In this document: piece by piece, positions 5,297-64,000 of the stretch
Layout: every line of letters begins with the position of its first letter
How positions within the stretch are numbered: the first letter of the stretch is position 1
Notes under the pieces: model-generated
What the model was told of the DNA's origin: nothing
What the model saw: the letters and a program-made list of their open reading frames with translations, nothing else
The model's database searches: none
Translations under genes and position numbers: made by a program
Assembly (NCBI RefSeq): GCF_003438995.1
Contig: NZ_QSUN01000007.1
Coordinates: forward strand, 12,599 to 76,598
DNA from: Bacteroides sp. OM05-12
GTDB taxonomy: Bacteria; Bacteroidota; Bacteroidia; Bacteroidales; Bacteroidaceae
Direction of reading: 5' to 3'
DNA length: 64,000 bases

Positions 5297-6847
5297 ATGA
5301 AGAAAATTTATGCCCTTATTGCTGCTGTTGCAATGGCAACAACAACTTTTGCACAGGAAGCGCTACCTTATTCAGCTAACTGGCAATACAAAGCCGAAGC
5401 TCTCAACGCTGACGGAGAAGTAACGGACGCTGAAGCCGGAAAACCGACTGCCGACCAATCATTATACGATCTGGGAGGTTGGGTATCTGTAAAGACGGCA
5501 GGGTCACGCCCATTTTATATCGGCGTATCAAGCAAAAAACCGATTGAGAATACAATGGAGTTTGTGGATGCTCAACAAGACCCTACTATCAATACGTCAT
5601 TCTTGATATCACCGGCTTTAAACTTTGGAAATGAAAGCGTTAAGACAATCTCTTTCAAATGTGGAAAAAATGCAGACGACCAACTGTCATCCCGCTTGGA
5701 GGTATTGTACACTACCGACTACACCGGAGACCCCAAAACAACAGAGTGGACTTCGCTAAAAGCAAATATTTTGCCGGGAACAGGTATGAAAGCTACTGCC
5801 ATGAGCGAGGTTACTGTTATAACGGAAGTGGTTGCCCCTTCTGTTTATCTGGCAATCAAAGCAGACAAAGCTACCGAAGGCTTTTCTAAGGGAAGTAGCC
5901 AAGCTAAAATAAGAGTTACTCAATTTAAAGTAACAGAAAAAGAAAAAGAAATAAACGCACAGCTGCCATACGAAGCAAAATGGGCTTACAAAGCAGAACT
6001 TATCAATGTGTTAGACTCTACCTTTGTTCCCGGTTTTGATTCTACAAACGCAGGCAGTTACAAAGAAGACCCTGCAAACCTTGATTTGAACGGATGGGTT
6101 TCCATTTCAGAGGCAGGCGACCGTAAGTTTACTGTATTGGCAAACAAGAATACGGAAGGAAACAAAAGACAAGTTCCTAATACAATGGAATGGACCGACA
6201 ACAAACAATCAAAAGAGAATACTACTTGGTTTGTTTCCCCGAAGATCGATTTCTCTGCAACAGGAGACAAATATATCAACTTCCAGATAGGACGTGAAGC
6301 AATAGACCAAAAGATCTCGAACGTAGACCTACTTTACTCTACAGACTACGTGGACGATGTAAAGACTGCAACATGGACAACCATCAAATCACAACTTGTT
6401 CCGGAAGACCAAGTCGGATTAAATCCTGCCGATGGAGAATTGACTGAAAACTTATTGGCAGTTATCAATGAAAAGGTAACAATCAACAATCCGGGTGTGA
6501 CAATTGCATTTAAGGCAGCAAAAGTAGAAAGTGTTTCAACCCCCGGTGATAAACAAACTAAAATCCGTATCCGTAACTTCAAGATTACAGTAGATACCGA
6601 TCCTAACTCAATCATCAGCAACGAAACAACAAAAGCAGCCGCTTTCGTTGCCAACGGTGAGTTGAATATTGTAAACGCTGAAGAAGTAGCCAGAGTTGAA
6701 TTATACAACATTGCCGGTCAGAGTGCAATGATAGTAGCTCAACCTGCCAATACTGTAAGCCTGAATGGTATCACAAACGGTATCTATTTAGTACGTCTTA
6801 TCATGGCGGACGGTAGCTCTGTTACTACTAAAGTTGCTGTGAAATAA
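5297..6847 (+). CDS. Secreted paralogue of the 2126-4354 product, with a sorting-type C-terminus
   Basis: 516 residues, signal peptide ending in TFAQ. Residues about 21-215 and 216-430 are two copies of the same beta-domain as in the 742-residue protein upstream (LPYSANWQYK..., IENTMEF, FLISPAL, SFKCGKN). The last 75 residues (VARVELYNIAGQSAM...GIYLVRL...KVAVK) look like a type IX-like sorting domain, not the DUF6383 type. The CLPF module is missing. The closeness of the first units implies that an already two-unit gene was duplicated. It is the last gene of the susCD-linked group and is followed by a terminator. Confidence 0.82.
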   Translation: MKKIYALIAAVAMATTTFAQEALPYSANWQYKAEALNADGEVTDAEAGKPTADQSLYDLGGWVSVKTAGSRPFYIGVSSKKPIENTMEFVDAQQDPTINTSFLISPALNFGNESVKTISFKCGKNADDQLSSRLEVLYTTDYTGDPKTTEWTSLKANILPGTGMKATAMSEVTVITEVVAPSVYLAIKADKATEGFSKGSSQAKIRVTQFKVTEKEKEINAQLPYEAKWAYKAELINVLDSTFVPGFDSTNAGSYKEDPANLDLNGWVSISEAGDRKFTVLANKNTEGNKRQVPNTMEWTDNKQSKENTTWFVSPKIDFSATGDKYINFQIGREAIDQKISNVDLLYSTDYVDDVKTATWTTIKSQLVPEDQVGLNPADGELTENLLAVINEKVTINNPGVTIAFKAAKVESVSTPGDKQTKIRIRNFKITVDTDPNSIISNETTKAAAFVANGELNIVNAEEVARVELYNIAGQSAMIVAQPANTVSLNGITNGIYLVRLIMADGSSVTTKVAVK

Positions 6848-6975: not shown

Positions 6976-7070
6976 CCCCCGCTTGAGCGGGGGTAGGGGG
7001 TGTGTGACTTTTCCAACAGTTTAATAATCAAAGAAAGATTACACACCCCTTAATCCCCGCTCAAGCGGGG
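6976..7070. repeat. GC-rich nested inverted repeat
   Basis: Two small hairpins, CCCCCGC-TTGA-GCGGGGG (6976-6993) and CCCCGC-TCAA-GCGGGG (about 7055-7070), are also inverted copies of each other. The flanking GGGGTGTGT and ACACACCCC extend the large arm pairing. It resembles intergenic repeat elements that recur in Bacteroides genomes. It lies between convergent genes. Confidence 0.75.
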
Positions 7071-7124
7071 AAACTTGGATGCTTTGACTTTTTACACATT
7101 CCGTAGCAGAGTCTGTTTTTCAAC

Positions 7125-7175
7125 ATACGGTCCTTTGTTCACAAACTCCTATCGTTTGCAAACAAAGGACCGTAT
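7125..7175. repeat. Composite element A, hairpin 1
   Basis: A 15-bp outer stem (ATACGGTCCTTTGTT with its complement ending at 7175) encloses an inner CAAAC/GTTTG stem with loop TCCTATC. The core CAAACTCCTATCGTTTG is identical in the hairpin at 35207-35255. The stems differ by a compensated dinucleotide. Confidence 0.85.
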
Positions 7176-7210: not shown

Positions 7211-7243
7211 AAGCCCATGTTTGTGTGATACAAGCGTGGGTTT
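7211..7243. repeat. Composite element A, hairpin 2
   Basis: AAGCCCATGTTTGT pairs with ACAAGCGTGGGTTT when G-U pairs are allowed, with a short loop. It lies 35 bases after hairpin 1, as the second hairpin of element B lies 38 bases after its first. The sequences of the two second hairpins are unrelated. Confidence 0.6.
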
Positions 7244-7251
7244 TATGCTTC

Positions 7252-7471
7252 TCGTCCTTACGATTAACAAGATTCGTCCTTAAGGTTTAGCATTTTCCTC
7301 TTTACCTATTTATCGTATGACAGTTGTCAAACGATCGTCCGACAGTTGTCAGTCATGTGTATGACAAATGTCAAACAGTCGTCTGACAGTTGTCAGACGA
7401 TTAAACCTTCAGGACAAAAACACTTAATCTCCCTGAGATACCACGATAGGACTAAGGAGAAAAACATTAAG
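7252..7471. repeat. 22-bp-phased array of element A
   Basis: Four dyads of the form TGACAnnTGTCA start at 7318, 7340 (first base C), 7362 and 7384, exactly 22 bp apart. The same phase extends to the left as TCGTCCTTA at 7252 and 7274 and TCCTCTTTA at 7296. To the right, AGGACAAAAACA and AGGAGAAAAACA lie 44 bp apart. GTCCTTAAGGTTTA on the left is roughly the inverse of TAAACCTTCAGGAC at 7402-7415. No ORF of note covers it. Confidence 0.85.
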
Positions 7472-7472
7472 A

Positions 7473-7514
7473 AGTCCGGTGAAAGCTATATCTAAGATAT
7501 ACGCTCACCGGACT
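7473..7514 (-). terminator. Terminator of the propeller-PL8 lyase gene
   Basis: AGTCCGGTGA (7473-7482) pairs with TCACCGGACT (7505-7514), with an inner TATATCT/AGATATA pairing. On the reverse strand it is followed by CTTAATGTTTTT. It lies about 70 bases after the stop of the reverse-strand gene. Confidence 0.7.
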
Positions 7515-7584: not shown

Positions 7585-10500
7585 TTATCTCTTTATCAAT
7601 TTCTCTCCTGTAGCCTGACCGTTAATCAGCAAGATATAAACACCTTGCGCTAATGAAGCGGTCGGGATAACCAATCGGGCGGCACTGCCCGTCGCAGCAG
7701 AATAGACAATACGCCCGGAAACATCCGCCAATGCTACCTGACGGACAGCATCCGTATTATCAGCAAAGTCCAACGTCAAACGGTCGGTAAACGGATTCGG
7801 ATAGCAGGTAAAGGATACTGCTTCGGGAGAAGCACACATGCCCGACGTATTCTGATTGCTCAGTCGTACTTCCAAAGATTCGGCATCCATCCCGTTAAAA
7901 CGAAGTGTCGTCTCGTTCTTATCCGCATCATATCCTATACGTTCTACTTTCGGATTGGTTTCATCAACCGTCCATTCGCCTTTCAACGTCACTTCAACCG
8001 GTTGTTCTTCACTATCCAAGAATCTCTTGTCCGCGTCGATGCTCCACACCTGATACGGGAACTTATCTTCCGGATAGAATCCAAGTTCAGGATTGGAAAC
8101 ACTGATCGTTATATTCTTTTCTCCCGTCTCCTCAATCATTGCCATGCAAGGCTTGGTCGCTGCTACGATATAGTTATCATTCAAGTCTGTAACAGCCTGG
8201 AACAAGGCATATCCTTTCAATTTCTTTCCGGCATGATACACCACATGCGCCTTTTCATCTTGTTGCTGCACAGTATAAGGAAGTACGGGAGTGCCACTCA
8301 TAGCTTTCACTTTGTCCGCACCGCCCACGTAGATAAGATAATCGTAACTGCCGTTTGTTTCCTTACCGTGATTCAACCATGCTTTTGCATAGTTACCTTT
8401 CGTTTCGCTCAAGTTACCGTCTTTCATTGATATTTGTTCCGAACGCTTTACGGTCAGCCCTTTTGCATCCGGTATCACATATCCGTTGCCCACAGCATCC
8501 GTCAGATAGCAAGGAACATTTGTTGTTTGAGTCTCCTCTACGAAAAGTCCGGTTTTTGCTTCTCCATTCACATAAAGCGGAGTGTCTGCACTTGCCAGCT
8601 CATTCTGGAATAAAGTGGTATGAGCATCGTAATCCGCATGAGTGTTATTGATAGCGGAACCCAAAGCCACGATCTCATCATCAAAGAAGAAGTAGGATTT
8701 ATTGGCAGACAACTTAACTCCCAACCATTTACGTCCGTTATCATAATCATACGCCTGACGGATATCGTTGTAAATCATCCCGTAAACGCCATGCTTCTTT
8801 TCCAGAGACACACCGCCCGAGAAATATTGAGGAGAGAACTTTGCCCATTCAAAAGCCTTTGCTTCTTTGACAATATCATCCAAAGACATATTTAAAACCG
8901 TTGCTCCCGGTACGTGTACCCAGTCCCAACCGTTGTATCCAAGACCGCTTGCAGCACCGGTCACTACCCCTTCCGTATCTTTTGTAGCATACAATGAAAG
9001 ACCTCCTGCACTCTGATTGCGTCCCAGCCAATTCTGTCCGCTATTGGTTTCAAAGTCCCATACATATTTACTATATCCTTTCACAGCAGCCATCCATTCC
9101 CCACGACGGTGCACCTGCATAGCCGCATAAGGATAAGTACGGTTGCTTTCGGACATTTCATCATCAGTCAGATCTTTAGCTTTCAAAGCATTCATCAGTT
9201 GTACGGTCTGCATACCGCCATGGAAATAAATATCACTCTTCACGTCTTTAACCGTATTGTCCATTACACCGGAGTAAGCCGGATCATACAAACGGCAGAA
9301 TGCACCTCCGATACGATCTTTCATTTCTCCTTCAAGCACTTCATACAAGTAAGCAAAAGCAGGCATATTGCCAAGCAATGTGTTCAACTGATTCGGGAAT
9401 CGCCCGCACAGTCCGCGAGAAACGTCGTACTTACCGCTATACTGACGGAAAGCCAACAGACTGTTTGCCAAGTTATCGACCGCACTCTCACTCAAGGCAT
9501 ACGGAGTATCTTTCAGCAACATCGCCATTTGGCAAGAAGTATGCAAAGCATCGATATTATATGCATTTCCCCAAACTCCATAATGATGATACCCGGTGAA
9601 GTCCGGTTTCATAAAACCATCCCACGCCGAATTCAATTTCAGGTTCTGTTCAAGCGTACGACGAAGATATTCCAAGTCATCTTCACGCGTCAACTCATCA
9701 TCCGTCAGACAAGCCAGCGTCATCAAACGGTTGTGATAGATGGTACGAACTCCGTCCGAACGGCTTCCGTTGTGTTCCACTGCTGCTCCCCATATCTTAT
9801 TATCATCATTCAAACCTTCCACATTATCCGTCACCATACGGGTAGCCCACTTCATATTATCGCTCACTACCTGCCATTGCCCGCTACGTTGAAGCTCTTC
9901 ACGCATCAATATATTTGCATAAAAATAACCGGCAAGCCCCAAGTAAGGTCCGGAAGTGGAAAACTCCAATGCACTGTTCGTTACAAACCCTCTCTTTTCC
10001 AGATAATCATATAATCCCACTATTTCTTGCAGTACCTGCGGATTGTGATAATCCGCATTCGGAGTTTCTGCCGGACCTTCCAATTGATAACTCAATGCCA
10101 AAGGCAACAATACGTTACCCAACAAGTCACGAAGTTCTGTACTGCTACTTGTATTATTACTAGACAAGTCGAAAGGTTCAAGCCCCTCTTCCCATTGATA
10201 AGAAGCCAACTTCTGACGGGCGGTAGTCACTCCGGAACGTAAAGCCTGATAACGTGCAACAACCTGTGCATTACTGTAATCCGGGTTCTCGCCCACCAAC
10301 AAAGAGAAATAACGTTGATAAATCTTTTCCGCATCGCCTGCCGGCATGATTACACCATTAAGCACTGCACTATTATCACTTCCGCTTTTCAAGAAAGCAT
10401 ACACATAATATCGTTTCGCCGTAAGTCCCGGAATTTCAAAAGTAGTTCTCTCGCCTGCCTTTGCATTATCCACATGTGCGGCAGCCACAGCACCCGTGCC

Positions 10501-11793
10501 ATTCTCTATATCGGAAATGGAAGGTGTCACCGCACTTTCCGTTATCATCCAGTAAACTGTTCCGTTATCATTAGCTACCGTTTCCATCGTCACGGCATCG
10601 GCAGTCTTTGACAAGGGGAATAAATAATTCAGTGCCAAAGGTAATCCGGTTGAGAAAACATCCGTAGCAATAACATCACTTACATTTCCGGATTTGTCTT
10701 CCAACACCAGATATATCTTCTGATTAGAGACAGAACCAACGGTCAGCGTTTTCCGCACAAGCGTATTGGCTTCGCTAACTTCAAATCTCTCACCTTGCTT
10801 TACAGCCTCAACAGCGGGAGTTTCCCCATCCGCATCGTCCATCGCCCAATAAACAGTAGCAGGCTCATCTGTCAGAAGAGATAAATCAACAGTCGAGCGG
10901 GTTATATTATCCAATTTTAAGTTAGCAACAACGGGAGCAGTTATATCAGACGCTTTCCACATGATTACTGCATCGTTCTTTGAATCCGCAATATACAGAT
11001 TATCATTCGAATCTACCGCCAGACCGTAAGGAGCATTGAAAGTCCCGGTAGTTCCCTTCTCACCGATGTTATCCTTAAAAATGCCGTCAATTCCAAAACG
11101 ATAGATACCCATTTCGACCTGTTCATCGGCAGAAATTATCAGATTGCCGTTAGAGGTAGAAGTCATGCTCGCCAAACGGTTATAAACATTTTTACCATTC
11201 TCTTTCTTTATCATCCAATCAACCTGCCCTGATTCATTGGCATAGGAAGAGATCTTCAAAGTACCTGTATTCTTATCAACAATGTACATATTATCCGATT
11301 GATCAAAATAAACCTTCCGTACCTCCCTAAACTTATCGGCACTCAATTTCGTTATCTTTTCCTTCAAATTAAATTCGGCATCGTAAACGTGTACAGCCAA
11401 AAGGGTTGCAATATAGACGAGGCCGTTACTTCTTACTGCCACCCCATTCACATTTTCATCGAAAGAGATGGTTTTAAGTTCATTCTTATCGGCATCGAAC
11501 ACTTTTACATTTTTTGCGCCACGATTCGCCACCCATATCCGTCCTTGAGCATCACAGTCCACATCAAACGGAGTACCTAATCCGGTAATTTCCAACAAAG
11601 TTGTTTTTCCGTCCAAAGATGTTTTAACAACTTTATTGTCACCGGAAAACGCAATATAAAGAGCGTTGTCCTTTATCGTTATTCCCTTGGGAGCCTTCCC
11701 CTTAATAGAAAGATCAGAGGGGCTATACGTTTGTGCACTGAGAAAAGTAGTGCAACATAAAATCAAAACAAATAATAGTGCTTTTCTATCCAT
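7585..11793 (-). CDS. Secreted PL8-family polysaccharide lyase with N-terminal NHL-type beta-propeller
   Basis: I start at the ATG at 11791-11793 (MDRKALLFVLILCC..., signal ending in LSAQ). An upstream start at 11832 would lie in the promoter box. The protein is 1402 residues against about 1000 for usual PL8_2 enzymes. Residues about 20-290 form NHL-like propeller repeats (GIAVDSNDNLYIADS type). Residues about 290-490 are two Fn3-like domains. Residues about 490-1300 are the PL8 alpha-toroid and beta-sandwich, and the last 85 a sorting-type domain (CYPNPF...GVYILLING). By comparison with chondroitinase ABC, His737, Tyr745, Arg798 (GRFPNQ) and Glu915 fit the catalytic set, and GWDWVHVPGAT matches the family signature. 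PL8 enzymes cleave chondroitin, hyaluronan or xanthan. The exact substrate and the propeller's role are unknown. Confidence 0.9.
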   Translation of the reverse strand: MDRKALLFVLILCCTTFLSAQTYSPSDLSIKGKAPKGITIKDNALYIAFSGDNKVVKTSLDGKTTLLEITGLGTPFDVDCDAQGRIWVANRGAKNVKVFDADKNELKTISFDENVNGVAVRSNGLVYIATLLAVHVYDAEFNLKEKITKLSADKFREVRKVYFDQSDNMYIVDKNTGTLKISSYANESGQVDWMIKKENGKNVYNRLASMTSTSNGNLIISADEQVEMGIYRFGIDGIFKDNIGEKGTTGTFNAPYGLAVDSNDNLYIADSKNDAVIMWKASDITAPVVANLKLDNITRSTVDLSLLTDEPATVYWAMDDADGETPAVEAVKQGERFEVSEANTLVRKTLTVGSVSNQKIYLVLEDKSGNVSDVIATDVFSTGLPLALNYLFPLSKTADAVTMETVANDNGTVYWMITESAVTPSISDIENGTGAVAAAHVDNAKAGERTTFEIPGLTAKRYYVYAFLKSGSDNSAVLNGVIMPAGDAEKIYQRYFSLLVGENPDYSNAQVVARYQALRSGVTTARQKLASYQWEEGLEPFDLSSNNTSSSTELRDLLGNVLLPLALSYQLEGPAETPNADYHNPQVLQEIVGLYDYLEKRGFVTNSALEFSTSGPYLGLAGYFYANILMREELQRSGQWQVVSDNMKWATRMVTDNVEGLNDDNKIWGAAVEHNGSRSDGVRTIYHNRLMTLACLTDDELTREDDLEYLRRTLEQNLKLNSAWDGFMKPDFTGYHHYGVWGNAYNIDALHTSCQMAMLLKDTPYALSESAVDNLANSLLAFRQYSGKYDVSRGLCGRFPNQLNTLLGNMPAFAYLYEVLEGEMKDRIGGAFCRLYDPAYSGVMDNTVKDVKSDIYFHGGMQTVQLMNALKAKDLTDDEMSESNRTYPYAAMQVHRRGEWMAAVKGYSKYVWDFETNSGQNWLGRNQSAGGLSLYATKDTEGVVTGAASGLGYNGWDWVHVPGATVLNMSLDDIVKEAKAFEWAKFSPQYFSGGVSLEKKHGVYGMIYNDIRQAYDYDNGRKWLGVKLSANKSYFFFDDEIVALGSAINNTHADYDAHTTLFQNELASADTPLYVNGEAKTGLFVEETQTTNVPCYLTDAVGNGYVIPDAKGLTVKRSEQISMKDGNLSETKGNYAKAWLNHGKETNGSYDYLIYVGGADKVKAMSGTPVLPYTVQQQDEKAHVVYHAGKKLKGYALFQAVTDLNDNYIVAATKPCMAMIEETGEKNITISVSNPELGFYPEDKFPYQVWSIDADKRFLDSEEQPVEVTLKGEWTVDETNPKVERIGYDADKNETTLRFNGMDAESLEVRLSNQNTSGMCASPEAVSFTCYPNPFTDRLTLDFADNTDAVRQVALADVSGRIVYSAATGSAARLVIPTASLAQGVYILLINGQATGEKLIKR

Positions 11794-11829
11794 AGCTTTT
11801 TTATTGGTTAATACATTTATCGGATGAAA

Positions 11830-11837
11830 CAAAGATA
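11830..11837 (-). promoter_or_regulatory. -7 box for the propeller-PL8 gene
   Basis: TATCTTTG on the reverse strand fits the Bacteroides TAnnTTTG consensus and lies 37 bases upstream of the chosen ATG at 11793. It excludes the longer start at 11832. I see no convincing -33 element. Confidence 0.55.
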
Positions 11838-33540: not shown

Positions 33541-35112
33541 CTAATAAATATTAGCCATACTGACCAAAGGTTCGTACAGTTTCTCAATATCTTGGGCATC
33601 CATTTCAATCTGTACCTGATCACCGGGGATAAGTGTCTGCCCGGCAGGTTGCAATGATTTTCTATCCCGGTGAATCATCATTATCACACAATGATCCGGT
33701 AAGTTTAAGGTGTCCACTTGTTTCCCGTCAAAATAAGAACCGTTCATAATCTCCACCGATAATGTATAACGTTTCTGACTTTTGAAAGCCGGCGTATTTA
33801 TCATTTCATCATATAAGACAACGTTGAACGGCTTTATCTGTAATAACTCCGTGAAGTAATAGGTCAAGCCCCCCACTACTACGGAAGGATAAAAGACTTC
33901 AAAATGTCCTGTGATTTCGGTAATCAGAACAATAGCAGTCAACGGTGTACGCACCACTGCCACAAGAAATGCCGACATACTGATAAGCATGATATAACTG
34001 ACACTCTCATAACCGATTATACCTTTCTGTACCAGTATCAGAGCAATGATACGCCCGAAAAGCCCGCCCGTCACCAAAGTCGGGATGAAACTTCCTCCGG
34101 GAAGTCCGGAAGCAAAGGAATAAGTGGAAAACACAAAATGGAGCATCATCATCCCTGTAAGCCACCAAATTCCGTCACTCCCAAAAACAGCTTGTGTTAA
34201 AAGGAACTGTTCCCCTCCCCCCGTAAGATCTACTTCCGTCAAAGAAATGAGATACGCCACAATCAGCAAATAGAGCATCTTAACATACATAGGTCGATGA
34301 ACAGAGGAATATAAACGTTTTGCATGAAAAGTAAACAAAGAGTGAATTTTCCCGAATACGGAAATAACCACGGCCAACAAAACAAACAATTTCACCTGCA
34401 TCCAGAAGTCTAACGACGGTGCTATCGCATCAATTTGGTGATAAGGATTATTCATAAAAATCAAACTGCCTACCCCACCCGCCACAACTCCTGCAAGTAA
34501 AGTAGTGATAGCTGTTTTAGGAGCATCAAAACGTTCTATCGACTCAATAACCAGTAAAGAAGAAGACAGTGGAGCTGAAAAAGCAGCGGCAAGTCCCGCT
34601 CCCGCCCCAGCAGCGAGCAATTGTTTCTTCTCACCGGAAAGTACATGCGCCCATTTCGAAACCAAATCTCCGACATAAGAACCTATCTGCACGGAAGGTC
34701 CTTCACGCCCCAAAGAGAGTCCGGCACTGAGTGACAATACCCCACCTACAAACTTCGAAACCAACTCGATAAAAGAATGTCGGTAAGTGATTCTTCCGTT
34801 TATCACTCCTCTTGTTTGCGGGATACCTCCGCCTGTAATCAACGGCATCCGCTTCACCATCCACGCCACCAATATCAATATTCCCCACAAAGACAGAAAG
34901 ACCGGAATGTGCCAATACCAATGCGGATGGGAACTAAAAAACTCTTTTCGGATGTTGAAGAATAATTGAAGCAGATAGTGATAAGGCACAGCCACCAATC
35001 CCGTCAACAATCCGACAAAGATACTGACGAAATACAACCTCGCATCAATCAGCTTTAGCTTCCAGATACGCCAGTCACTCAAACTCTTTAAATCTTTAAA
35101 CTTCCACATCAT
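33541..35112 (-). CDS. ClC-family chloride channel or H+/Cl- antiporter with C-terminal RCK_C domain
   Basis: 523 residues. ClC selectivity motifs are visible: ITGGGIPQTRG (for GSGIP), GREGPSVQIG with the gating glutamate, and GGSFIPTLVTGG (for GxFxP). About ten or more membrane helices fill residues 30-430. The last 80 residues (SVEIMNGSYFDGKQV...GDQVQIEM) form a TrkA_C/RCK_C-like regulatory domain rather than CBS domains. It exchanges chloride (and perhaps protons) across the inner membrane. It is transcribed away from the region holding composite element B. Confidence 0.93.
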   Translation of the reverse strand: MMWKFKDLKSLSDWRIWKLKLIDARLYFVSIFVGLLTGLVAVPYHYLLQLFFNIRKEFFSSHPHWYWHIPVFLSLWGILILVAWMVKRMPLITGGGIPQTRGVINGRITYRHSFIELVSKFVGGVLSLSAGLSLGREGPSVQIGSYVGDLVSKWAHVLSGEKKQLLAAGAGAGLAAAFSAPLSSSLLVIESIERFDAPKTAITTLLAGVVAGGVGSLIFMNNPYHQIDAIAPSLDFWMQVKLFVLLAVVISVFGKIHSLFTFHAKRLYSSVHRPMYVKMLYLLIVAYLISLTEVDLTGGGEQFLLTQAVFGSDGIWWLTGMMMLHFVFSTYSFASGLPGGSFIPTLVTGGLFGRIIALILVQKGIIGYESVSYIMLISMSAFLVAVVRTPLTAIVLITEITGHFEVFYPSVVVGGLTYYFTELLQIKPFNVVLYDEMINTPAFKSQKRYTLSVEIMNGSYFDGKQVDTLNLPDHCVIMMIHRDRKSLQPAGQTLIPGDQVQIEMDAQDIEKLYEPLVSMANIY

Positions 35113-35206
35113 CCGAAATATATCTACAACAATCTCCCGGATGGGATGTTTCGCCGAGTATGTTAAATGATGATTTATTGGTACCCGCTTGCACGTTTAT
35201 ACAACA

Positions 35207-35255
35207 TACGGTCGATTGATTACAAACTCCTATCGTTTGCAAACAATCGACCGTA
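35207..35255. repeat. Composite element B, hairpin 1
   Basis: TACGGTCGATTG pairs with CAATCGACCGTA around the inner stem CAAAC/GTTTG with loop TCCTATC. The core and most flanking bases are identical to the hairpin at 7125-7175. The stem dinucleotide is GA/TC here and CT/AG there. Confidence 0.85.
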
Positions 35256-35293
35256 CCTTTGTCTTCAATCGTCCGTATGTCTTTTTTCAATCA

Positions 35294-35321
35294 ACCTGAT
35301 GTTTTAAAAAAACATCAAGGT
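35294..35321. repeat. Composite element B, hairpin 2
   Basis: ACCTGATGTTT pairs with AAACATCAAGGT with one bulged A. It lies between hairpin 1 and the phased array, as in element A. Confidence 0.65.
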
Positions 35322-35332
35322 GTTTTATAAAT

Positions 35333-35435
35333 CGCCTAAGAGAGTGTTGCCTTACGCCTAAAGGAGCGTCACCTTACGCTCAAGGGAGCGTTGACTAACA
35401 CTTAAGGGAGTGAGAGCCAACGCTCCCTTAGGCGT
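35333..35435. repeat. 22-bp-phased dyad array of element B
   Basis: Five imperfect dyads start at 35333, 35355, 35377, 35399 and 35421, exactly 22 bp apart: CGCCTAAGAGAGTG, CGCCTAAAGGAGCG, CGCTCAAGGGAGCG, CACTTAAGGGAGTG and CGCTCCCTTAGGCG. The last is nearly the reverse complement of the second. The array lies upstream of the ClC gene and downstream of the tiny ORF. The 391-base gap 35113-35503 otherwise holds the two hairpins and no gene I can support. Confidence 0.85.
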
Positions 35436-35503: not shown

Positions 35504-35653
35504 TTAATCTTCATCTTTCCAGAAGTTTTTACGTTTTGGAGCACCGGCCCAGCCATTATGGTCGTCATTCAGTTCTTTAGATGTTGCAATGACATTCTCC
35601 AATCCTATCTCTATTATTTCTATCTCCGGTTTGATATATTCTATTGTATTCAT
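35504..35653 (-). CDS. Tiny 49-residue protein of the KPEIEIIE family
   Basis: Starts 24 bases after the stop of the 867-residue secreted protein on the same strand. It contains YIKPEIEIIE, VIATS and a C-terminal KRKNFWKDED, aligning at both ends with the 52-residue ORF at 4369-4527, with a different middle (HNGWAGAP). There is no signal peptide or membrane segment. The repeated placement behind a gene with the same C-terminal module makes a chance ORF unlikely. Function is unknown. Confidence 0.75.
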   Translation of the reverse strand: MNTIEYIKPEIEIIEIGLENVIATSKELNDDHNGWAGAPKRKNFWKDED

Positions 35654-59430: not shown

Positions 59431-59438
59431 TATATTTG
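59431..59438 (+). promoter_or_regulatory. -7 box of the large adhesin-like gene
   Basis: TATATTTG lies 27 bases before the ATG at 59466. A TTG start at 59436 would lie inside the box and is rejected. Confidence 0.55.
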
Positions 59439-59465
59439 CCTCAACAATCACTAAAAAGATTATCT

Positions 59466-62400
59466 ATGAGAAAGATTTTATTCCTATTATTAATGATGTG
59501 TTGCTCAGTAGGGCTGACGGCACAAACGAAGTTCAAACAATTAGGAGAAACTAGGGAAAAGACTCCTGCTCCGAGTAGAACGGTGCTAACCGGATTTACC
59601 AAGCAATCCATCGGATTGTATAAGCATAACCGGGCACAGATCATCAAATCCGCCCAAAGGGTGAAGAACGCCAACGTTCCTGCGGATAAGGTAGAAATCA
59701 TTCTGGAGGCACACGATGTGATGGGCTATGGTATGATAGGCTATCAGATGCTATTGGACGACAAGCACAATACATACGGAGAACTGTTCGACGGCGACTC
59801 ATACGAGTATAACGGAGGTTCGTATGATGCATTCAAATACAAGATTCCAGAAAATGCTGAGGCAGATCCTGACACAAAAGCAGTAATCGTGGACGGTGAA
59901 GGAACCGTACTGATTCCCGAAGGAACGTATGATTATATGATAACGTGCCCGTTCCCGCGCGAAGGCATATCATTTGCCAAAGGTGAATTCGGACGTTTTG
60001 ACGATTTCTACTTCAAAGGCGGCTATACGTACCGCTTCCTCATCACGTTGGAAAGCGGTGATATGGGAATGGAAGACGTAGCGATTCCATATACAGATGT
60101 AGATGCCGCTGTTGTAGCCGTGACACTCCCGGCAAGCAGTATGGATCTCACCGCTACAGAGACTATCTCTGTTAAAATAGCTAATCGGGGAACATCGGCA
60201 ATTTCCAACTTCCCGGTCTGCTATCAGGTGAATGGTGGAAACCCGGTACAAGAAACCTATACCGGTACAATAGCTGCCGGAGCTACGGCTGATTATACCT
60301 TCAATACGAAAGCAGATCTATCTGCAGAAAAGCTCTATACGATAAAGGCTTACACAAGCCTGGCAGGCGATTTAATTCCGTATAATGACGCCAAAGAGGG
60401 AAAGTGCAGGCATATCGGTGCTGCTTCATTGCCATATACGTATGACTTCTCTTCGCAAGAGGACTTCCCATTTGACTGGACGGTAATCAATGCGAACGAC
60501 GATTACTGTTACTGGCAATATAATAGCTGGGATACACACAGTGGCGAACCGGGTGCCGCCCAATGTTCTTCTTACAGTCCGGAAAACGACGACTATTTGC
60601 TATCTTCACCTATCCGTTTGGAAAGCGGCGACAATCATATCATATTTTACGTTAAAGCCGGTTCTGCCAGTATGCCAGAGTTACTGGATGTGCGCTACGG
60701 CAATACGACGAATGTAGAATCGATGACGATAATCGGAGACTATACCGTAAAAAATGGAGATTGGCTCCTGAAAGCTATTAACTTTAAAGTAGAACAAAGC
60801 GGTGTTTACTATTTTGCTTTCCACTTGAAGACCGTTGATGGCGCAAGCCTCTACCTTGACGATATATTGATCGACCGCGGTATTTACGAAACATACCCGG
60901 ACATCGCCATCGAGAAAATATTATTGCCTTACTCCAACTGTGATTTATCCGAACAGTCACAAATCGGTGTCCGATTGATAAATAACGGCACGGGGCCGGC
61001 AGAATCTATCGACCTGACCTATACAGTTAATAACAAGGCGCCTGTTAAGCAGACCTTTACGGAAGGACTGGAATCAGATGCTACGAAATCTTTCTACTTT
61101 GACACGCCTGCCAACTTCCTCGACTTGGGTAAGTATGACGTAACTGTAAAGGCGCAAACGGGTAATAATGCGGACGAGCAGACTGCTTCTGTGGAACACT
61201 ACGCACCGATAACCGAGTTTCCGGCAGTAACGGACTTTTACTTGGACGAGGGTATAGAGGGTAACTGGGCACCAATGTCGGAAAACGCATGGAGATATGA
61301 GCCGTTTGGAGGTTGCTACAGTTGTGTTAAAGGAGGAGTAGAGAACGGACTGCTCTCCCGTTGTTTCACCTTCAACCACCCGTTCCGTGTAAAGATAGCC
61401 TACAGAGGAGGCCTCTTCTTCACACCGTCCGCCCTTTATATCGCTTACGGAAAGCCTGGAACGGATGTGTCTACATGGACCAAAGTTTATGAGGACAAGG
61501 AAATCTCCGGCGAAGTAGAAACGGAATTCAGCGTTACTCCTGAGGAACCCGGCAACTACAGCATCGCCATTGTGGACATTTCGGAAGACGCTAATACATT
61601 GGTGTCTCTTTACCAACTTACCGTATCCGAAGTATATGAACATGATATACGAATCACTGATGTAGCTTCTCCGCTGGCTCCTTACACACCGGTAAATCAT
61701 GCCAATAGGGAAGGGACTTATACTGTCGGAGTAGAAAACAGAGGTACTGCCCAGTTAACCGGCGTGAAGTTTTCTGTCAACAAAGACGCAACCCGGTTAT
61801 TCACTTCCGAAGCGATTTCCACACTTGATGTTTCGGCAACAAGCACATTGTCCGTACACGGCACATTACCCGCCATGAAGATAGGAGATCATCTGGCAGA
61901 CTTGAGCATAAAGGCGGAAATGAACGAAACGGACAGTTACATGGAAGATAATACACGGATATTGCCCGAAGTGCATGTCACGGATACCGTTTTTGCCACC
62001 GAACAGACCAACGAATTTATTCTGGGAACAGGACTTAGCGGACAGACTGCCTATTTCGGTAATGTATATACGCTGTCGGAGAGGGATACGCTAACTTCAC
62101 TCACCGTAGGATTAGCACAGGATAACTATTATGTACCGGTGGACATGGGTGTCGCCGTATATAGCCTCAAGGCGGACGGAAAGACACTCGACAAGGAACT
62201 TTACTCCAAAACCTTTGAACGTGAAGGCAAAGGCGGCTTACGACAGATTTACTTCACACCCCGCATATTGGAACCGGGCAAGTATTATTTTGAAGTACGC
62301 CAGCTTAGCATGAACAACATTGGTCTTGCTTATGAACTTGGAGAAAACAGCTCATTCTACCAAAACGTGGACGGTACTCTGCATCTGATGGCAGGATACG

Positions 62401-63623
62401 GCAATATCGTGGTGCGCGCCAACTTCGGACATAATGCTAAGGCATACAAGAAGAATGTAGCCGTGACGGAAATTACCAAACCTGTGAAAACGAAAGCTTT
62501 GTTCTCTTCTGTAGAAACAGTGGAAGCCATCGTGGAAAATACGGGTATGGAAGCAGCATCCGGCATCACTGTACGCTGTCAGACAAAGGGTGTTGATAAA
62601 ACGGTAACCCTTGATTTGGAATCCTACTCGAAGAAGACGGTGACGTTCGAGGGAGTCAATCTCTCCACACCGGGAGAATATACACTGACCGTGACAGCTA
62701 CTGTGACAGGTGATGAAAACCCGGGAGACAATGCCGTGACACGTATATTAACTTCTGTTGCCGAAGCAAGCCCATACAGTCTTGATTTCGAGTCTTGCGA
62801 TGACTTTGATACAGACCACGAGTTCAATCCGAAATGGTGGACGGTAAATCGTCTAGGCTTGCCTACAAATGCATGGTGGCAGTTTGATTATCCACACAAT
62901 GAAGCACCTGTCGGATTTATTGCTTTCAATATCGAAGCTACTACCCCTCCGATGACGGCTGATTTGAATGTCCCGGGATTCTTCCCCCATTCGGGTAAAC
63001 GTTTCGGCGCAGCGTTCGTACCGGCATACATTTCGAGCGACGAGATTTACGCTAGCGATACTTGGCTCATTTCACCGAAATTGAAGTTGGATACACCATC
63101 TTCACTGGAGCTTTACGTAAAGACTCATAAGCTGGAAAGCCCAAGTTCTAAGTTAGAACGCTACAAGCTATACGTCTCCGACACGGACGACAACTTTGAC
63201 AGCTTCCGTCTGATCGGAGGTGAAAGAGAGGCTCCGGTGGATTGGACGAAGGTGACGGTAGACCTCAGCGCTTACGACCATAAAGAAATATATGTAGCCC
63301 TACAATACATCAGCCCGACAATTGAAGGAGTAGTCATGATGGTAGACGACATTCAGGTGAAGAGCGGCGCAGTAGGTATTGACAGTACAGAAGAAACGAC
63401 GGACGTGCTGCTGTCTGTTACCGACGGGATGTTAAGCATCACTTCCGGCTCACCGATTATCGGAGTAAGGTTCTACAATATTTCCGGGCAGCAGTTATAT
63501 GACTCCGGCACAATAGGAACAGATTATTATCGTATCCCGTTGACCGCTTACCCGACAGGCGTTTATATGGCACGTGTGCAGACAGATAAAGGAACGAAGA
63601 CGTTGAAGTTTGTAGTGAAGTAA
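59466..63623 (+). CDS. Large secreted multidomain adhesin-like protein (choice-of-anchor J and CARDB-type domains)
   Basis: 1385 residues from the ATG at 59466, signal ending in GLTAQ. The N-terminal region (about 75-195) contains a gingipain-adhesin-like segment (DVMGYGMIGYQMLLDD, EGTYDYMITCPFP). CARDB-like domains alternate with cleaved-adhesin/choice-of-anchor-J domains, recognised by LPYTYDFSSQEDFPFDW, SSPIRL and SLYLDDILID, and again near 1090-1280 (DTWLISPKLKL, MMVDDIQVKSG). The C-terminal about 75 residues form a sorting-type domain (GVRFYNISGQQLY...GVYMARV). No protease catalytic motif was seen. It is probably a surface or secreted adhesin controlled by the divergent TPR regulator. 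Confidence 0.85.
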   Translation: MRKILFLLLMMCCSVGLTAQTKFKQLGETREKTPAPSRTVLTGFTKQSIGLYKHNRAQIIKSAQRVKNANVPADKVEIILEAHDVMGYGMIGYQMLLDDKHNTYGELFDGDSYEYNGGSYDAFKYKIPENAEADPDTKAVIVDGEGTVLIPEGTYDYMITCPFPREGISFAKGEFGRFDDFYFKGGYTYRFLITLESGDMGMEDVAIPYTDVDAAVVAVTLPASSMDLTATETISVKIANRGTSAISNFPVCYQVNGGNPVQETYTGTIAAGATADYTFNTKADLSAEKLYTIKAYTSLAGDLIPYNDAKEGKCRHIGAASLPYTYDFSSQEDFPFDWTVINANDDYCYWQYNSWDTHSGEPGAAQCSSYSPENDDYLLSSPIRLESGDNHIIFYVKAGSASMPELLDVRYGNTTNVESMTIIGDYTVKNGDWLLKAINFKVEQSGVYYFAFHLKTVDGASLYLDDILIDRGIYETYPDIAIEKILLPYSNCDLSEQSQIGVRLINNGTGPAESIDLTYTVNNKAPVKQTFTEGLESDATKSFYFDTPANFLDLGKYDVTVKAQTGNNADEQTASVEHYAPITEFPAVTDFYLDEGIEGNWAPMSENAWRYEPFGGCYSCVKGGVENGLLSRCFTFNHPFRVKIAYRGGLFFTPSALYIAYGKPGTDVSTWTKVYEDKEISGEVETEFSVTPEEPGNYSIAIVDISEDANTLVSLYQLTVSEVYEHDIRITDVASPLAPYTPVNHANREGTYTVGVENRGTAQLTGVKFSVNKDATRLFTSEAISTLDVSATSTLSVHGTLPAMKIGDHLADLSIKAEMNETDSYMEDNTRILPEVHVTDTVFATEQTNEFILGTGLSGQTAYFGNVYTLSERDTLTSLTVGLAQDNYYVPVDMGVAVYSLKADGKTLDKELYSKTFEREGKGGLRQIYFTPRILEPGKYYFEVRQLSMNNIGLAYELGENSSFYQNVDGTLHLMAGYGNIVVRANFGHNAKAYKKNVAVTEITKPVKTKALFSSVETVEAIVENTGMEAASGITVRCQTKGVDKTVTLDLESYSKKTVTFEGVNLSTPGEYTLTVTATVTGDENPGDNAVTRILTSVAEASPYSLDFESCDDFDTDHEFNPKWWTVNRLGLPTNAWWQFDYPHNEAPVGFIAFNIEATTPPMTADLNVPGFFPHSGKRFGAAFVPAYISSDEIYASDTWLISPKLKLDTPSSLELYVKTHKLESPSSKLERYKLYVSDTDDNFDSFRLIGGEREAPVDWTKVTVDLSAYDHKEIYVALQYISPTIEGVVMMVDDIQVKSGAVGIDSTEETTDVLLSVTDGMLSITSGSPIIGVRFYNISGQQLYDSGTIGTDYYRIPLTAYPTGVYMARVQTDKGTKTLKFVVK

Positions 63624-63632
63624 AAGTTCTTT

Positions 63633-64000
63633 CTCTAAGAACGAAGGTTAGCGGAGGACACGGATTGGGCGGATGAGGACGGATGAATTATTTTAAATCC
63701 GTCTTTATCCGCCCGATCGGCGTTATCAGCGAACCTGGTTCTTATATTCTTCTACAGAGTTCACTGCTCAAATCGCATTATCTACACCTAAAACTTTTTT
63801 CTCTAAGAACAAAGGTTCGCGGAGGACACGGATTGGGCGGATGAATTATTTTTAATCCGCCTTCATCCGCCCGGTCGGCGTTATCAGCGAACCCGGTTCT
63901 TATATTCTTCTACAGAGCTCCCTGCTCAAATCGCATTATCTACACCTAAAACTTTTTTCTCTAAGAACGAAGGTTCGCGGAGGACACAGATTGGGCGGAT
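63633..64000. repeat. Long tandem repeats with internal self-complementarity, continuing past the window
   Basis: Units begin at CTCTAAGAAC: 63633, 63801 and 63959, so periods of 168 and 158 bases. Within a unit, TAAGAAC-AGGTTCGC near the start is inverted as GCGAACC-GGTTCTTA. Inside it, GGGCGGAT is inverted as ATCCGCCC. The 10-base difference lies in the central hairpin (GAGGACGGAT present in unit 1 only), with a matching change on the other arm. No ORF was found in it. Confidence 0.85.

Follow-up and report, generated by a model that had tools for sequence, protein, structure and literature searches.

A covarying hairpin present twice in a 64-kb Bacteroides window and once in genome G806: possible two-way transcript ends at gene boundaries

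Results and discussion

Two hairpins of one kind

The 64,000-nucleotide stretch of Bacteroides sp. OM05-12 DNA analyzed here (the window) contains two copies of a single foldback of ~50 bp, which may serve as a two-way transcript end at gene boundaries, the reading that we favour and to which we give a probability of about 0.45. The known copies are the two in the 64-kb window (sites 1 and 2, Table 1) and one locus in genome G806, and comparison of the three sequences supports a covarying hairpin. If the reading holds, the hairpin marks transcript ends and is specific to this lineage.

The core CAAACTCCTATCGTTTG is found at 7142-7158 and 35223-35239, its sole matches in the window at up to three mismatches (chance mean 0.28). 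A gapless alignment of the 47-nt stems of the two copies matches 41 of 47 letters, and the inner 25 nt do not differ. An earlier reading of these letters alone (the sequence-only reading) had described a common core and an exchange of CT/AG at site 1 for GA/TC at site 2, and we confirmed both, the exchange being compensated at both pairs. Its statement that full pairing was kept is correct for this exchange and incorrect for arm position 12, where a change of T to A on the + strand breaks one pair at site 2. Another difference converts a G.U pair to A-U on the - strand. When the 21 pairs of the two window copies were counted on the - strand, 17 were invariant, two had changed on both sides, one had changed on one side and one was broken.

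RNA folding of the two sites on both strands gave z values of -6.7 to -10.0 against shuffles. The - strand was more stable (-33.8 kcal/mol at site 1 and -31.5 kcal/mol at site 2) than the + strand (-27.5 and -22.8 kcal/mol), the C.A mismatches of the + strand being G.U pairs on the - strand, where the fold is stronger. The free energies of site 1, site 2 and the G806 copy were each lower than those of all shuffles, and a stable stem-loop of the kind found in intrinsic terminators is predicted for all three. Neither terminator scan listed the conserved hairpins, the stem of which is interrupted.

Table 1. Positions of the hairpins, arrays and neighbouring genes at the two sites of the window
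Feature	Position	Strand	Details
Gene left of site 1	5297-6847	+	516 aa; weak secretion-tail match under its cut-off
Conserved hairpin, copy 1 (site 1)	7125-7175	-	outer stem 15 bp, inner stem CAAAC/GTTTG, loop 7
Second hairpin at site 1, unrelated	7211-7244	+	CCCATG..CGTGGG then TTTT; terminator-like by eye
Array 1	7312-7401		four dyads, 22-bp steps, centres 7323.5, 7345.5, 7367.5 and 7389.5; GACAGTTGTC type
Third foldback, site 1 gap	7473-7514		arms AGTCCGGTGA / TCACCGGACT enclosing TATATCTAAGATATA
PL8-type lyase gene, converging on site 1	7585-11832	-	Pfam scan
CLC chloride-channel gene	33541-35112	-	start codon 93 bp from site 2; Pfam scan
Conserved hairpin, copy 2 (site 2)	35206-35256	-	compensated GA/TC pair; T-tract on neither strand
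Second hairpin at site 2, unrelated	35283-35331	+	CCTGATGTTTT / AAAACATCAAGG; inverted-repeat search
Array 2	35333-35435		22-bp units, CGCTCAAGGGAGCGTT type, last unit inverted; weaker dyads
Small ORF	35504-35653	-	49 aa; stop toward array 2; no Pfam match at 1e-5

Search for homologues

By RecA identity the window groups with the family of genome G259, in which 23 of 399 genomes matched the window RecA at 1e-192 with identities of 85-88%; the values for G259 itself and for G535 and G559 were 87% and 90%, respectively. In the family of genome G106 the identity was 71-84% in 111 of 123 genomes, namely those matching at 1e-100. The order to which G259's family belongs is that of a Paludibacter record (G001), Paludibacter being a member of the Bacteroidales.

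A covariance model built on the two window hairpins (R1) was run without filters on the window and returned the two sites as its only strong matches, the next best having an E value of 0.01. The same model was run on 301 genomes drawn from G259's family with strict filters, by which weak matches are lost, and matched at E <=0.1 in five of them. G806 alone was judged homologous (37.7 bits, E 8.6e-9), the match in G765 was an array and the rest were weak, unrelated stretches. The G806 copy has the form CATACGATCTTTTG-CTC-CAAAAGCTGCAATGTTTTG-AAG-CAAAAGGTCGTATG, where the window counterpart is CATACGGTCCTTTG-TTCA-CAAACTCCTATCGTTTG-CAAA-CAAAGGACCGTAT. It lies in a 98-bp gap between convergent genes, of which a GH3-family gene ends 30 bp before the hairpin and mnmA has its stop 15 bp beyond it, and there is neither an array nor a second hairpin beside it in this gap.

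No copy of the core was found with R1 in the 123 genomes of G106's family or in 38 genomes of its genus, and the two genomes of the nearest genus gave no match, an empty answer that is weakly informative. Several candidates were rejected. In nine of the 38 genomes of G106's genus the matches (E 1e-4 to 0.9) proved on inspection to be arrays, intergenic hairpins of another kind or stretches alike by chance, and the 33 matches in G206, a number which includes both strands of some single places, were represented by 26 inspected cases that all belonged to a class of arrays of four 22-bp units. A place in G416 with 16 of 17 core letters and ACGG/CCGT had no stem and was taken as chance. A second covariance model made from all three hairpins (R2) and run over 2.59 Mb gave nothing under E 0.0006 beyond its own three sequences, the recognisable matches being arrays of other families. 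The exact 17-mer core occurred at six viral-contig and eight genome-contig loci, none of the 14 with palindromic flanks by eye, and these were also taken as chance. Relaxed hairpin patterns had no match in viral contigs, 311 bases at site 2 had none in a plasmid BLAST search and the whole window had none in Rfam at the gathering score; the 17 sub-threshold Rfam matches in the two gaps were to 15 microRNA families, one snoRNA and one enterobacterial sRNA.

Covariation across three sequences

In the alignment of site 1, site 2 and the G806 copy, 58 of 63 cells are paired and five of the 21 pairs have changed on both sides, one of which occurs as three pair types (C-G, G-C and U-A). Each covariation measure was reached by 0 to 2 of 500 shuffles, and when the register was slid only 0 or 1 both-sided pairs remained. 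Covariation across homologues, as looked for in structured RNAs, is thus present in three sequences; because pairing is rewarded by the model that detected the third, some of the covariation in that copy reflects ascertainment. Taken by themselves, the window copies carry less weight, as equal covariation was seen in 132 of 500 shuffles and both compensations are adjacent, so that one mutation event could have produced them. The small number of sequences and the many shuffles that match the window pair count against the preferred reading. The fold hypothesis is raised by G806 because its pairs have changed at other places.

The sequence-only reading had proposed a structure with covariation and had named three outcomes that would tell against it: a covariance search with only two copies, stems that do not covary, or copies always inside a known mobile element. 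The G806 copy supports the proposed structure and none of the three outcomes was observed, the first by virtue of this single locus, the second from the five pairs changed on both sides and the third from the position of the copy between the GH3-family gene and mnmA.

Template switching is the main caution on the covariation, and it is reported to produce multibase compensatory changes, which can arise in a single event (PMC8794818). A neutral, functionless hairpin with arms matched by template switching during replication would be a mutational by-product, an explanation that we regard as rather improbable. The single adjacent pair of window compensations is what one switch would leave, and in one orthologous array of G405 and G403 the outer half-site complements the neighbouring unit in one species only. 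Against this explanation, the pairing of the G806 copy has been kept despite changes at several separate positions, in a compact gene junction.

Gene boundaries and the transcript-end reading

Two of the three copies, site 1 and G806, are located between convergent genes, and a T-tract directly 3' of the stem is present at site 1 on the + strand (a seven-T run starting at 7175) and at G806 on both strands (a run of four T on each strand, separated from the stem by one A on the - strand). A role at transcript ends is therefore indicated. Since T runs occur on each strand and the stops are close, the G806 copy reads as a two-way terminator. As we picture it, the foldback would be transcribed and its ~21-bp stem would halt the polymerase or protect the 3' end, from either side. 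Selection on pairing would keep the arms matched, or else one arm would be copied onto the other by template switching and broken stems would be removed by selection. The adjacent 22-bp arrays are elements of a separate kind found in the same habitat, at gene boundaries.

A plain terminator agrees poorly with site 2, which has no T-tract and no convergent genes, the hairpin being placed between the start of the CLC gene (35112, - strand) and the end of the 49-aa ORF (- strand). Also against a terminator, the better-folding - strand at site 1 lacks a T-tract. The identity of the inner 25 nt exceeds what a plain terminator needs, and recent copying would explain it too. Compared with bidirectional intrinsic (Rho-independent) terminators, the hairpins are alike in the stable stem-loop, the convergent gene ends and the T-tracts at G806 and on the site 1 + strand, and unlike them in the sequence-conserved core, the long interrupted stem and the missing T-tract of site 2. 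HMP2_4205, HMP2_1065 and HMP2_1032, which are reported as palindromic candidate structured RNAs of Bacteroidetes, 80-132 bp long, found on both strands and predicted to be terminators (PMC8040213), resemble the window hairpins as far as can be compared by description.

Site 1 lies within a 737-bp gap between the + strand gene ending at 6847 and the convergent lyase gene ending at 7585. The distances from the hairpin to the flanking stops are 277 and 409 bp, with other hairpins between, which also counts against the transcript-end reading. The hairpin at 7211-7244 was absent from the output of the repeat finder and of one terminator scan. A large inverted repeat, CCCCGCTTGAGCGGGG ... CCCCGCTCAAGCGGGG, occupies 6976-7071, downstream of the left gene and ahead of hairpin 1, and is unrelated to the hairpins.

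Mobility and REP-like elements

Pfam scans covered 35 window proteins, the last large ORF in part, where a simple gene caller gives 37 genes. Polysaccharide lyases, a sulfatase, SusD, regulators, DnaK, RecA and similar proteins were identified, and no transposase (including the Y1 type), integrase or relaxase was found among the 35 at the limits used. A large protein with DUF2436 and CARDB domains, which we take to be gingipain-adhesin-like, is encoded at 59436-61700. A direct repeat of 158 bp in 2.3 copies, with inner inverted repeats, occupies 63621-64000 up to the window end.

The sequence-only reading had suggested folded sites used by recombinases or relaxases, for which the scanned proteins offer no enzyme; the neighbours of the G806 copy are mnmA and a GH3-family gene, and neither window hairpin is abutted by a GTAG or CGTC tag. 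RAYT-linked REPs are reported to have one of these tetranucleotides at the foot of the hairpin (PMC3733652). The flanks in the window are CAACAT / ATTTTT at site 1 and CAACAT / ACCTTT at site 2. REP, BIME and REPIN elements resemble the hairpins in being short, dispersed extragenic palindromes, often 3' of genes and in families that differ between genomes (PMC3733652). They are unlike the elements seen here in that the hairpins have no such tag and no linked RAYT was seen among the window proteins scanned, and in that the arrays are phased at 21-22 bp with a near-fixed unit number in several families.

We consider it very unlikely that the hairpins are mobile single-strand elements, REP-like or IS200/IS605-like, dispersed by a tyrosine (HUH) transposase. 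The two near-identical copies 28 kb apart would fit such an origin, and a Y1 transposase gene framed by different inverted repeats in G206 indicates that the arrangement exists in these bacteria. Apart from the missing gene and tag, G806 has one locus only, the empty R1 result in the two nearest-genus genomes points weakly the same way, and a phased array was present within 1.5 kb of one of the 14 Y1 loci, which were distributed over seven of 12 genomes. A REP transposase was, on this last count, also rejected as carrier of the arrays. The Y1 gene in G206 (contig C1, ~521 kb) stands amid many AAGGCCAACGGCCTT / ATAGGGCAACGCCCTAT repeats, is RAYT-like in setting and has a GTTGATAA dyad array adjoining.

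Phased dyad arrays

At each window site the conserved hairpin is indeed succeeded by another hairpin and a 22-bp array, as the sequence-only reading had said. Its further claim of a shared orientation is without clear meaning because the two arrays are unrelated in sequence, and the composite class that it had proposed (conserved hairpin, variable hairpin and array) was not borne out. The G806 homologue has neither of the other parts in its gap, and two array families of G206 stood side by side in two of 16 cases, which is not above chance (null mean 0.75, with 19% of placements as high). Two cases are insufficient to make a composite class. The best three dyads of array 1 score 18 of 24, a score also seen in one of five shuffled windows; the array is also a 22-bp tandem repeat and contains a terminator-like stretch on the - strand (7388-7369). 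Array 2 is terminator-like on the + strand (35401-35432).

A scan for three palindromic units (eight pairs each) at a fixed step was applied to 1.58 Mb of G206, G259, G060 and G405. At a threshold of 19 of 24, step 21 gave 18 non-genic and one genic array and step 22 gave 44 and none. Step 33 gave 31 and one, an echo of spacer palindromes at half the period, and all other steps from 14 to 40 gave at most three non-genic and two genic arrays. The dyads phased at 21-22 bp are a class separate from the hairpin. They occur in G403 and G559 too and are unevenly spread, with none at threshold 18 in the 100 kb scanned of each of two G259 contigs. No paper on such arrays in Bacteroidales was found in a search that left subscription journals mostly outside, and novelty is unproven.

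Four or five units were counted in 45 of the 62 non-genic arrays, some terminal units being spurious. The families in G206 include AAACTACCGGTAGTTT, GTTGATAATTATCAAC, GAGGTACCTC, AAAGGCCGGC and TGGCAAAA types. Unit number was four in 14 of 16 arrays of the G206 AAACTACC family (five in the other two), five in 5/7 of the GAGGT family and four in 3/4 of the TGGCAAA family; it was four in 10/11 arrays of the ATCTTCAG type of G259 and G559 and three in 16/17 of the G405/G403 type. The G206 GGCCG family ranged from three to seven (four in 7/11), and the GTTGATAA family from two to four by a unit-counting script.

Habitat was counted with genes called by a simple hexamer script, by which single cases may err. 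All eight arrays of the G206 GTTGATAA family lie in divergent gaps, compared with 74 of 245 gaps and about one third of random placements; the figures for the other G206 families are 2/16 (CTACC), 1/10 (GGCCG, leaving out an eleventh array at a contig edge), 0/4 (TGGCAAA) and 1/7 (GAGGT). Three of four arrays of the G259 type are divergent (0.49 expected). Of 16 arrays of the G405/G403 family, 12 have a stop codon no more than 70 bp away, compared with 826 of 4000 random placements, and three are divergent; the 16 include three orthologous pairs.

Units of the G405/G403 family were located by their arms only (AAAACA-4-TGTTTT with any centre, 10 or more of the 12 letters matching). In 98 of 100 half-sites the dinucleotide, taken directly on the left and as its complement on the right, was CC or TA. 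The states of left and right half-sites agreed in 27 of 46 cases within units and in 22 of 46 between nested partners, neither beyond permutation, in a test of 16 of the 17 arrays from which a two-unit array and two odd half-sites were omitted. In ten four-unit arrays of G259 and G559, symmetry within units was 0.706 compared with 0.638 when permuted (reached by 1.7% of permutations) and nested pairing, at 0.644 compared with 0.635, was not above permutation. Foldback as a general rule for arrays was rejected, since nested and other left-right pairs were alike, with 5.80 and 5.85 of eight for three units, 6.61 and 6.62 for four, 5.20 and 5.48 for five, and 5.17 and 4.68 for six (four arrays only).

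Orthologous arrays of G405 and G403 differ by dinucleotide swaps, loss of whole units, single changes and presence or absence, as judged from 17 non-genic places at threshold 18, four of which had no alignable partner on both sides and several of which were chance low-complexity matches. Half-sites in the best-sampled family switch as dinucleotide blocks irrespective of any partner, and the arrays thus warn that in such DNA a compensated dinucleotide change, taken by itself, supports a fold or selection on structure only weakly.

The arrays also bear on an explanation at the DNA level, in which each hairpin would be a degenerate member of the phased-dyad class, with three 17-bp dyads resembling CAAnnnACnGTnnnTTG at 21-bp steps, the duplex being read by a dimeric protein on one helix face. 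We judge this to be unlikely. The class itself is real (62 non-genic arrays to one genic at 21/22 bp in four relatives), the best register of the hairpins is 21 bp and half-site dinucleotides are swapped between orthologous arrays. The hairpins, however, score 15 and 14 of 24, which other steps in the window do as well, and their covariation tracks a fold of the first unit on the third, where nested partners in G405/G403 are uncorrelated (22/46).

It is possible, and in our view doubtful, that the arrays make up an undescribed class of Bacteroidales boundary elements, mostly of three to five dyads phased by two helical turns. There would be many families, each peculiar to its genome and having a preferred unit number and a habitat (gene ends or divergent promoters) of its own, one family having a two-letter half-site alphabet and the window hairpins being foldback members. 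The arrays matter more than the hairpin, as their reader, spread and change are directly testable.

Many of the AAACTACC arrays in G206 have long flanking sequences in common, CCATTGAAAATGA..TTAATATTCTCTTC at one end and GAAAAAGGGGG at the other, as if a longer unit had been dispersed, although some copies are without them. In G765 (contig C1, ~1.72 Mb) a 22-bp array with ACGACCG half-sites and a fold z of -6.5 lies between a phage-type integrase gene and a carbamoyltransferase gene.
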